Assembly: GCF_900113615.1 (NCBI RefSeq)
Contig: NZ_FOPZ01000005.1
Location: 62,001 to 126,000, forward strand
Direction of reading: 5' to 3'
Source of the DNA: Halorubrum aquaticum
GTDB lineage: Archaea; Halobacteriota; Halobacteria; Halobacteriales; Haloferacaceae
DNA length: 64,000 nt
Positions 6,219 to 8,810 of the stretch are shown piece by piece (within the stretch, counting starts at the first letter, position 1; each line of letters begins with the position of its first letter). The notes below the pieces were generated by a model. The model saw only the letters and a list, made by a program, of their open reading frames with translations, did not search any database and was not told the DNA's origin. A program made the translations under genes and the position numbers.

Positions 6219-6299
6219 ACGTCGGGAGTCGCCCGCGCGAGCATAAGGGTTTGTGGAACCGCGGCCGCCCGCGGCCACCGACCACACGCGTCGTCCCGT

Positions 6300-6392
6300 C
6301 GCAGCCGATCCGTTCCGCCACCGCCGATCCGTTCCGTCGCCGCGGATCCGTCCCGTCGCCGCGGATCCGTCCCGTCGCCGCCGATCCCTCGC
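6300..6392. repeat. 19-bp tandem repeat, five units, between divergent genes
   Basis: The element gatccgt recurs at 6307, 6326, 6345, 6364 and 6383, an exact 19-bp period. The consensus is about GATCCGTYCCGTCGCCGCG, with the first and last units decayed. It fills the space between the PRTase gene (minus) and gatB (plus), just upstream of the gatB TATA-like element at 6412-6418. The 19-bp spacing (nearly two DNA turns) would put each unit on one face of the helix. Confidence 0.85.
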
Positions 6393-6411
6393 GTCCGCCC
6401 GTGCCGACACG

Positions 6412-6418
6412 ATTTAGG
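6412..6418 (+). promoter_or_regulatory. TATA-like box of gatB
   Basis: ATTTAGG lies 31 bp before the gatB ATG at 6443. It is the only AT-rich stretch in the gap, so transcription is probably leaderless or nearly so. Confidence 0.45.
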
Positions 6419-6442
6419 TGGCCCGCCCGCAACGACCCGCTA

Positions 6443-7930
6443 ATGAGCACACGGACCGCGAGCGAGGAACGGGCGGTCGTGATCGGGCTGGAGGTCCACG
6501 TCCAGCTCGAGACCGACACCAAGGTCTTCTGTGGCTGTTCGACGGAGCCGGCCGACGACGAGGAGCCGAACACGCGCACCTGCCCGACCTGTCTCGGGCT
6601 GCCGGGCGCGCTGCCGGTCCTCAACGAGGCCGCCGTCGAGGCCGCGGTGAAGATCGGGAAGGCGCTCGACGCCGACATCCCCGAGACGACGACGTTCCAC
6701 CGGAAGAACTACTACTACCCCGACCTGCCGAAGAACTTCCAGCTCACCCAGTACGACGCGCCGATCTGTGCGGACGGCGAACTCGAGGTGTCCGTCGACG
6801 GCGAGCGACGCACCATCGGGATCACCCGCGCGCACCTGGAGGAGGACCCCGGGAGCATCCAGCACGCGGGCGGCTCCATCGAGTCGGCGACGCACACGCT
6901 CGTGAACTACAACCGCGCGGGGACCCCGCTGATGGAGGTCGTCACCGAGCCCGACTTCCGGTCGCCCGCCGAGACGCGCGCGTTCCTCGCGAAGCTCGAG
7001 GAGGTCCTGGAGTACCTCGGCGTCTTCGACGCGACGCGGGACGGCAGCCTGCGGGTCGACGCCAACGTCTCGCTCGTCGACGCCGACGAGGTGACCGAGG
7101 ACGGGTCGGTCCCCGAGGCGGTGCTGGCCGACGCCAACCGCGCCGAGGTGAAGAACATCTCGAGTCACAAGGGCGCGGAGAAGGCGCTCGCCTACGAGAT
7201 CACCCGCCAGCGCAACGTGCTCCGTCGCGGCCGCGAGATCGAACAGGAGACCCGTCACTGGGACGAGGGCCGCGGCGTCACCGTCTCGATGCGCTCGAAG
7301 GAGGCCGAGAAGGACTACCGCTACTTCCGGGAGGCCGACCTGCCCGCCCTGGAGGTGTCCGACTGGAAGGACCGGATCCCGATCCCCGAACTGCCCGACG
7401 CCCGTCGAGAGCGGTTCCGTACGGAGTACGGCCTCGACGACGAGGCGGCCTCGAAGTTGACCTCGACGAAGGAGGTCGCGGACTTCTTCGAGGATGTCGC
7501 CGGCGAGTACGACCCGGAACTGGCGGCGACGTGGGTCGCCGACAACCTACTCGGCGAGCTCAACTACCGCGAGATGGAGATCACCGACGTGACCGACCGG
7601 CTCGACGAGTTCACACGCCTGGTCGAACTCGTCGACGCCGGGGAGTTGACCGTGAAGAACGCCGAGGAGGTGGTCCTCCGCGAGATGCTCGACGAGGGCG
7701 AGGACCCCGAGAGCGTCATCGAGCGCGAGGGGCTCGGGAAGGCCGAAAGCGACGAGGTCGAGACCGCGGTCGAGGCCGCCATCGAAGAGAACCCCGACGC
7801 CGTGGCCGACTACCATGACGGCGACGAGGGCGCGATCAACTTCCTCGTCGGCCAGGTGATGCAGGCGACCGGCGGGAGCGCCGACCCCGGACAGGTGAAC
7901 GGGCTCCTCCGCGAGCGGCTGGACGGGTAG
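6443..7930 (+). CDS. gatB: Asp-tRNA(Asn)/Glu-tRNA(Gln) amidotransferase subunit B
   Basis: 495 aa, the full GatB length. It phosphorylates and binds the misacylated tRNA while GatA supplies ammonia, forming Gln-tRNA or Asn-tRNA in the cytosol. The N-terminal signature VVIGLEVHVQLETDTKVFCGC and the zinc Cys residues (C-G-C and C-P-T-C) are present, followed by HRKNYYYPDLPKNFQLTQYD and LMEVVTEPDFRS. The C-terminal YqeY-like tRNA domain ends INFLVGQVMQATGG. gatA and gatC are not in the window, as is common in archaea. Confidence 0.95.
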   Translation: MSTRTASEERAVVIGLEVHVQLETDTKVFCGCSTEPADDEEPNTRTCPTCLGLPGALPVLNEAAVEAAVKIGKALDADIPETTTFHRKNYYYPDLPKNFQLTQYDAPICADGELEVSVDGERRTIGITRAHLEEDPGSIQHAGGSIESATHTLVNYNRAGTPLMEVVTEPDFRSPAETRAFLAKLEEVLEYLGVFDATRDGSLRVDANVSLVDADEVTEDGSVPEAVLADANRAEVKNISSHKGAEKALAYEITRQRNVLRRGREIEQETRHWDEGRGVTVSMRSKEAEKDYRYFREADLPALEVSDWKDRIPIPELPDARRERFRTEYGLDDEAASKLTSTKEVADFFEDVAGEYDPELAATWVADNLLGELNYREMEITDVTDRLDEFTRLVELVDAGELTVKNAEEVVLREMLDEGEDPESVIEREGLGKAESDEVETAVEAAIEENPDAVADYHDGDEGAINFLVGQVMQATGGSADPGQVNGLLRERLDG

Positions 7931-7959: not shown

Positions 7960-8187
7960 ATGGACGTGACCGTCGACGTCGTCGGCGGCGGGGAACGCGA
8001 GTGCGTCCTCGAGGACGGCGCGACCTACGCCGACCTGATCCGCGCCGCGGGCTTTCACCCGCAGGAGGCGTCCGTCCTCGTCGACGGCTCGCCCGTTCCC
8101 GGCGACCGTCCCGTCGACGCCGACCGCGTTCGGCTGCTCCGGCTGATCCAGGGCGGATCGAACGACCACCTCGAAGCCGAGGGGTGA
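7960..8187 (+). CDS. samp2: SAMP2-like ubiquitin-fold modifier with tail beyond Gly-Gly
   Basis: 75 aa beta-grasp protein. DATYADLIRAAGFHPQEASVLVDG and the terminal RVRLLRLIQGG match haloarchaeal SAMP2, which is activated by the E1-like UbaA. SAMP2 is used for protein conjugation and as a sulfur carrier in tRNA wobble thiolation. The oddity is nine further residues, SNDHLEAEG, after the Gly-Gly that normally ends the protein, so activation would need trimming by a protease. No single substitution at the expected position looks like a simple lost stop, and I see no frameshift. The next gene (acetyltransferase) begins 4 nt downstream. Confidence 0.8.
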   Translation: MDVTVDVVGGGERECVLEDGATYADLIRAAGFHPQEASVLVDGSPVPGDRPVDADRVRLLRLIQGGSNDHLEAEG

Positions 8188-8191
8188 CGCC

Positions 8192-8689
8192 GTGGCGGAC
8201 CCCGCCGACCGCGACGCTCCCGACCGCAACTCCGCCGACCACGCATCGGTCCCGGAGCGGATCGCGATCGAGCGGGCGACGGCCGGCGACCGGCTCGACG
8301 TCCTCCGCGTGCTCGACGCGGCGATGTTGGAGACCGACGCCGACGACCTCGCCGCCCGGATCGACGACGGGGACGCCCTCGTCGCCCGCTTCGAGCGGAC
8401 CGGATCCGTGGTCGGGGCGCTGGTCGTGACCCGGCCGGAGCCGGGACGACGCCACGTCGACGCGGTCGCGGTCCGCCGCGCGCGGCGCGGTCGGGGGATC
8501 GGGTCCGCGCTCGTCGCTCGTGCGGTGCGGGACGCGCGAGCGGACCCCGACGCCGATGCGGTCACCGCGACCTTCGACGCGGATCTGAGGGGGTTCTACG
8601 CGGAACTCGGGTTCGCGGTCGAGCCGGTCGAGGGAGGTCGGCTCCGCGGCCGGCGGGCGGTTGGCGGTTCCGACTCGAACGGCGGGTGA
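8192..8689 (+). CDS. GNAT-family N-acetyltransferase
   Basis: 165 aa with a GTG start. The acetyl-CoA binding motif A reads VAVRRARRGRGIGSALVARAV and is followed by LRGFYAELGFAVEP, the usual GNAT C-terminal motif B. Residues 1-25 are an acidic, probably disordered leader. The gene starts 4 nt after the SAMP2-like gene, so both are probably on one transcript. The substrate is unknown. Confidence 0.8.
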   Translation: MADPADRDAPDRNSADHASVPERIAIERATAGDRLDVLRVLDAAMLETDADDLAARIDDGDALVARFERTGSVVGALVVTRPEPGRRHVDAVAVRRARRGRGIGSALVARAVRDARADPDADAVTATFDADLRGFYAELGFAVEPVEGGRLRGRRAVGGSDSNGG

Positions 8690-8731
8690 CGGTTCGGTCG
8701 CACCGTTTCGCCTCGTACCCTTCCACGTCGT

Positions 8732-8810
8732 CCCGTAGCGATCCGTTTCGACTCCTCTCGTCCCACCTCGCCCCGTAGCGATCCGTTTCGCCCCGTACCG
8801 ATCCGTTTTA
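8732..8810. repeat. Degenerate 20-bp repeats ending in a promoter
   Basis: The 19-mer beginning CCCGTAGCGATCCGTTTCG occurs at 8732 and again at 8772. A variant at 8792 changes its last bases to TTTTA, so the final copy forms the TATA-like element (about 8806-8811) of the RDD gene at 8835. Spacings are 40 and 20 bp. A weaker relative lies near 8702. The core CGATCCGTT also occurs in the 19-bp repeat near 6300. Confidence 0.75.

Follow-up and report, generated by a model that had tools for sequence, protein, structure and literature searches.

We find it quite likely that the SAMP2 ubiquitin-like modifier encoded in the window, by which we mean the whole stretch of 64,000 nucleotides of Halorubrum aquaticum DNA that was analysed, is made as a precursor, which is cut by the JAMM1 desampylase behind its Gly-Gly and is then used by UbaA. 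More generally, haloarchaeal SAMP2 is probably often a precursor with JAMM1 as its maturase, much as eukaryotic ubiquitin is matured. The need for a SAMP maturation step had been open, because the H. volcanii modifiers that have been studied end at Gly-Gly.

The samp2 reading frame lies at 7960-8187 on the plus strand, opens with ATG, closes with TGA (8185..8187), and encodes 75 amino acids ending in LLRLIQGG-SNDHLEAEG. Residues 1-66 (7960..8157) form a SAMP2 beta-grasp domain that closes with Gly65-Gly66, encoded by GGC GGA at 8152-8157, and the nine residues that follow, SNDHLEAEG (8158..8184), form a C-terminal tail, or putative propeptide. The NCBIfam model NF041919 assigns residues 1-66 to the SAMP2 equivalog over its full profile (1-66/66), with 101.6 bits against a cut-off of 70; the Pfam family PF21965 also matches, with 99 bits against a cut-off of 27, and a PDB sequence comparison finds the H. 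volcanii SAMP2 structures 2l32 and 4hrs. An AlphaFold2 model, based on 12 genus sequences, is confident for the beta-grasp up to residue 65 and falls below a pLDDT of 50 at residues 66-75. When that model is submitted to Foldseek, the two H. volcanii SAMP2 structures come out on top, followed by SUMO and ubiquitin chains; the RMSD to the two SAMP2 entries is high (7.8 and 11.8), and the search confirms a ubiquitin/SAMP2 fold and nothing beyond it. The sequence-only reading had described a SAMP2 homologue that runs nine residues past Gly-Gly, and the reading frame, NF041919 and PF21965 bear this out.

The window's protein shares with H. volcanii SAMP2 (HVO_0202) an orthologous beta-grasp and the same conserved RLI-x-GG end. 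The H. volcanii protein, however, is described as stopping at Gly-Gly and as having lysines at positions 58 and 64 (PMC4048286), whereas the window's has its nine-residue tail and no lysine. Lysine is absent from the whole of 7960-8157, positions 58 and 64 being Arg and Gln, and nine of the 49 genus copies are likewise lysine-free in the stretch read. Since H. volcanii SAMP2 chains are linked through Lys58, chains of that type cannot form from the window's SAMP2; a lysine-less SAMP2 variant nevertheless retained conjugation in H. volcanii (PMC4048286).

Within the genus, SAMP2 is matched in 49 of 52 genomes, with one match each, and in the translated copies Gly-Gly is followed by a variable stretch of 2-25 residues, or of 155-170 in two fusions. 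The sequence-only reading had implied that the window's copy is exceptional, which is wrong: the comparison of C-termini among relatives that it proposed makes the tail the rule in the genus (49/49), and finds residues past Gly-Gly in 120 of the 303 genomes of the order whose C-terminus was read. The exact tail SNDHLEAEG recurs in one other species (L002; L031, Halorubrum cibi DSM 19504), and the tails of the other genus copies differ. Gly-Gly itself is invariant across the genus and is written with eight synonymous codon pairs among the 49 copies, so that the residues, and not merely the DNA, are conserved. The two fusions, L006 with 155 and L009 (L034, Halorubrum sp. 48-1-W) with 170 residues past Gly-Gly, owe their length to a downstream GNAT gene that follows in frame with no intervening stop. 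One record (L033/G011), named Halobellus captivus ZY8, has a Halorubrum-like tailed SAMP2 and appears to group with Halorubrum genomes, in conflict with its name.

Across the sampled order SAMP2 is found in 386 of 392 genomes, and in the window's family (f1 in our numbering of families) in 156 of 170. We read the C-termini of 153 of those 156 (G054, G064 and G158, being weak or unlisted, were left out) and of 150 other genomes of the order. These 150 comprise 69 best-scoring or hand-picked rows, 77 genomes from a range of genera, selected for having or lacking JAMM1, and 4 that were added; possession of a tail was never a criterion. The selection that gave the 77 also contained three f1 genomes. 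None of the 303 tabulated copies has lost Gly-Gly (296 were classed by pattern and seven, which fell outside the pattern, by eye before the permutation statistics), nor has any of the 30 copies of a later set. The tailed copies come from 28 genera in nine families. The window's SAMP2, with nine further codons, and these 120 orthologues lack a stop directly after Gly-Gly; judged from the reading frames, such a stop is a variable and not a defining trait of the SAMP2 family. A modifier domain with a kept Gly-Gly and a variable C-terminal extension is, at the level of these sequences, what a precursor looks like.

The tails range from a single residue to whole domains, and many consist of two residues only. 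We looked for a conserved sequence within them and saw none; length and letters differ among the tails read, which makes it unlikely that the tail holds a recognition motif. Proline never directly follows Gly-Gly (0/120 tails), as compared with 6.7% proline at the following tail residues, a count that is inflated by the kinship of the sequences; its absence would fit a peptide bond that needs to be cleaved. In 23 of the 120 tailed copies the extension has at least 100 residues. Fifteen of these we read as SAMP2-GNAT fusions, with genus g18 supplying 12 (each of its copies that we read), Halorubrum two and family f13 one, and eight as SAMP2-redoxin fusions with an AhpC/TSA-type peroxiredoxin, found in g15, g17 and g28 (f1) and in g44 (f17); a Pfam scan of six of the 23 fusion proteins returned GNAT or AhpC-TSA, and the remainder were assigned by reading the sequence. 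In two of the g44 fusions (L222, L267) the redoxin CxxC is lost, though it is present in L221. In f7 (L177-L220), many SAMP2 copies have low-complexity sequence inserted past the second strand, which varies and reaches about 30 residues at most, with the other parts of the fold conserved.

The window's own genome encodes two JAMM proteins, a JAMM1 desampylase (C11:75010-75489; NF041370, 152.6 bits against a cut-off of 130) and a JAMM2-like protein (L245). The JAMM1 motif E...H-x-H-x7-S-x2-D is intact, with its Glu in EVCGVL and the remainder in HSHPAGPPRPSETD. There is also one E1 gene of the ThiF/UbaA type, on whose product the conjugation of SAMP2 to lysines, or its thiocarboxylation, would depend. 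JAMM1 is patchy in the order: NF041370 matches (E <= 0.001) in 298 of 392 genomes, of which 273 pass the cut-off, and the window genome's own JAMM1 is matched in 156 of the 170 family genomes. Seven genomes of the genus (G006, G014, G019, G024, G028, G043, G045) have two or three JAMM1 matches each. JAMM1 status was assigned by a single-protein search in f1 and by NF041370 elsewhere, and a genome with only a weak match (E >= 3e-6) was scored as JAMM1-negative.

Tails occur in 118 of the 229 JAMM1-positive genomes, as compared with 2 of the 74 JAMM1-negative ones (Fisher p = 1.5e-16, with kinship ignored). Both exceptions are incomplete assemblies: in G129 (79% complete) SAMP2 is fused to a GNAT and the search for JAMM1 gave nothing, and the SAMP2 of G187 (63% complete) ends in GGGG. 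Since 111 of the 229 JAMM1-positive genomes are tail-less, JAMM1 permits tails and does not impose them. The contrast within f1 is 95 of 140 with JAMM1 against 1 of 13 without, or 46 of 91 against 1 of 13 once the window's genus is removed (p = 0.005). Outside f1, counting pattern-matched rows only, it is 21 of 86 against 0 of 57, and within f4 it is 1 of 11 against 0 of 32. Both traits cluster by family, with JAMM1 loss in f4, f5 and parts of f7, and tails in f1. Because genomes are not independent, the fair p-value is the family-stratified one (0.002-0.007): permuting JAMM1 status among genus units within each family gives p = 0.007, and the same permutation gives p = 0.0018 after removal of eight genomes that we ourselves picked for their low completeness. 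In the later set of 30 JAMM1-negative genomes, whose SAMP2 ends we looked at only after the set had been fixed, no tail was found (0/30); this set adds only modestly, because it comes mostly from f4, where tails are rare even with JAMM1. The best reading of these patterns is that, in lineages that lack JAMM1, the stop codon must sit directly behind Gly-Gly.

The maturation that we propose would run as follows. The window's SAMP2 would be translated as an inactive precursor; the cell's JAMM1 would cut the Gly66-Ser67 peptide bond and free SNDHLEAEG; and UbaA would then adenylate the exposed Gly-Gly carboxylate, leading to isopeptide conjugation and to sulfur transfer for tRNA thiolation. That the cut falls exactly behind Gly-Gly we infer from the genetic association and from the published activity of HvJAMM1 on SAMP1 fusions. 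HvJAMM1 cleaves linear SAMP1-MoaE precisely after Gly-Gly in vitro, and cleaves it in vivo as well, and uncut SAMP1-MoaE is inactive and does not support molybdopterin-dependent growth (PMC4443979). In Caldiarchaeum, SAMP precursors are cut by CsJAMM, and the nine-residue tail of CsUb by CsRpn11 (PMC6043591).

It is important to ask whether the association between tails and JAMM1 could be an accident of descent, with some clades having lost JAMM1 and others having gained tails without any causal link. The clustering of both traits by family and the weak contrast in f4 are what such an accident would produce, yet the contrast holds within f1, also outside the window's genus; the family-stratified permutation of genera retains it; and its direction agrees with the published enzyme activity. 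We regard an accident of descent as unlikely. There is also a small chance that the tail is removed behind Gly-Gly by a protease other than JAMM1, such as a carboxypeptidase, the proteasome, or JAMM2 with partners. The window's genome does contain a JAMM2, a protein for which a part in SAMP2 recycling has been proposed in H. volcanii (PMC4895103), and exopeptidases could trim tails of two residues. However, tails track the presence of JAMM1, HvJAMM2 alone is reported to be inactive (PMC4895103), and tails that are whole folded domains demand an endopeptidase that halts exactly at Gly-Gly.

The tail might instead be retained, in which case SAMP2 would take no part in conjugation or sulfur transfer, and would act non-covalently or be decaying. 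As encoded, the Gly-Gly carboxylate is indeed blocked, and a protein without lysine forms no Lys58-type chains (PMC4048286). We give this reading only a very small chance: Gly-Gly is invariant despite the synonymous variation of its codons, SAMP2 is kept as a single match in nearly all genomes of the genus (49/52), a UbaA-type E1 and JAMM1 are both present, and a SAMP2 variant stripped of lysine can still be conjugated in H. volcanii (PMC4048286). The sequence-only reading had offered lost conjugation as one of two branches, and that branch goes unsupported because a dead C-terminus would be expected to drift; its other branch, a precursor cleaved by a JAMM-type protease, gains support from the invariant Gly-Gly with variable tails, from the intact JAMM1 and E1, and from tails that occur almost only with JAMM1. 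A sequencing or assembly error that moved the stop codon has next to no chance of explaining the tail and was rejected, given that another species shares the exact tail and that all 49 genus copies are tailed. A second, normal-ended SAMP2 was also considered and rejected: the window's copy is the sole match (E <= 0.001) in its genome.

Returning to maturation by JAMM1, we favour a neutral origin of the tails: where the protease is present, the stop codon may drift. The stop would be free to drift, or to merge into the downstream gene, only where JAMM1 exists. In the window, the gene downstream of samp2 is a GNAT acetyltransferase (8192..8689, plus strand; PF00583/PF13673/PF13508) with a GTG start; as it begins only 4 nt past the samp2 stop, fusion is a short step. 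In related genomes (loci L006 and L009, and g18) it is a GNAT that SAMP2 is joined to in frame, and many of the genomes read have a GNAT gene close to samp2. Tails or fusions may also have a useful role. We lean, with some reserve, towards a wider proposal: that JAMM1 doubles as the obligatory SAMP maturase across haloarchaea, which would free the stop of samp2 (and of samp3), would split SAMP2-acetyltransferase and SAMP2-peroxiredoxin fusions into two working proteins, and would make JAMM1 necessary for sampylation and tRNA thiolation in tailed species, while lineages without JAMM1 keep the stop at Gly-Gly.

The other modifiers were compared across 30 sampled f1 genomes, 19 JAMM1-positive and 11 JAMM1-negative. 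SAMP3-type proteins in this sample end in tails such as GGA, GGHV, GGVNGCER and GGAPGRAR, or continue in frame into a second domain, presumably TBP-like, a label that follows the naming in PMC2948915. The SAMP3 of the window's own genome (L246/L348; C2:83060-83731, minus strand) has an internal Gly-Gly, an acidic linker, and then an in-frame second domain that ends in Ala-Gly-Gly; SAMP3 and the putative second domain are encoded as separate genes in other genomes. No strong SAMP3 match was seen in any of the 11 JAMM1-negative genomes sampled (G097-G100, G108-G110, G112, G073, G159, G160), nor in G153 among the 19 JAMM1-positive ones; JAMM1 and SAMP3 may have been lost jointly. SAMP1, taken as a negative control, ends in VSGG followed by the stop, both in the window's genome and in ten SAMP1-type proteins of genomes that gave no strong SAMP3 match (nine JAMM1-negative genomes and the JAMM1-positive G153). 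Among the proteins read in the 30 genomes, it is to SAMP2 and SAMP3 that tails attach.

Eukaryotic polyubiquitin and ubiquitin-ribosomal protein precursors carry a C-terminal extension or a fused carrier, are cut past Gly-Gly, and are matured by cysteine deubiquitinases. In haloarchaea, by comparison, the maturase of SAMP2 would be a metalloprotease, and the tails vary fast; SAMP2 fusions, if they are split by JAMM1, would be the counterpart of ubiquitin-ribosomal protein genes. The SAMP/ubiquitin precursors of Caldiarchaeum subterraneum, the substrates of CsJAMM and CsRpn11, likewise have a tail past Gly-Gly and are cut there by a JAMM protease (PMC6043591); that lineage is distant, however, and the haloarchaeal tails vary by species, include whole fused domains, and can be compared with loss of the protease. 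In Ubl-MoaE and SAMP1-MoaE, too, an enzyme is fused behind an internal Gly-Gly and is released by JAMM1, but the natural Ubl-MoaE fusions are those of other organisms and haloarchaeal SAMP1-MoaE was engineered (PMC4443979), whereas SAMP2-GNAT, SAMP2-redoxin and the short tails are natural in haloarchaea. Thaumarchaeal Ubl-Cgi121 is another natural archaeal Ubl fusion, with a different partner and in a different lineage (PMC2948915). JAMM maturation of archaeal ubiquitin-like precursors and Ubl-MoaE fusions are already known. Haloarchaeal SAMP2 tails and natural fusions of SAMP2 go unmentioned in excerpts of PMC2948915, PMC6043591, PMC4443979, PMC4048286, PMC8305020, PMC4895103 and PMC4500146, and the open-licence papers searched yielded neither variable SAMP2 tails nor natural SAMP2-GNAT or SAMP2-redoxin fusions in haloarchaea, nor their connection with JAMM1. 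If our reading is true, then the haloarchaeal order is a natural experiment, in which precursor, ready-made and fused modifiers are sorted by the retention of one protease. It also predicts that Halorubrum cannot do without jamm1, which is dispensable for making a SAMP2 that already stops at Gly-Gly, and it would supply ready substrates for studying how JAMM proteases shifted between cutting conjugates and making modifiers.

Upstream of samp2, on the same strand, lies a reading frame at 6440..7930, which from its sequence is a candidate for a GatB-like Glu-tRNA amidotransferase; the listed frame opens at 6251, and its start codon is ambiguous. The intergenic stretch 8730-8800, past the GNAT gene, contains repeats of a short motif resembling GTAGCGATCCGTTTCG, and similar repeats seem to occur also at about 6250-6420, ahead of the upstream gene.
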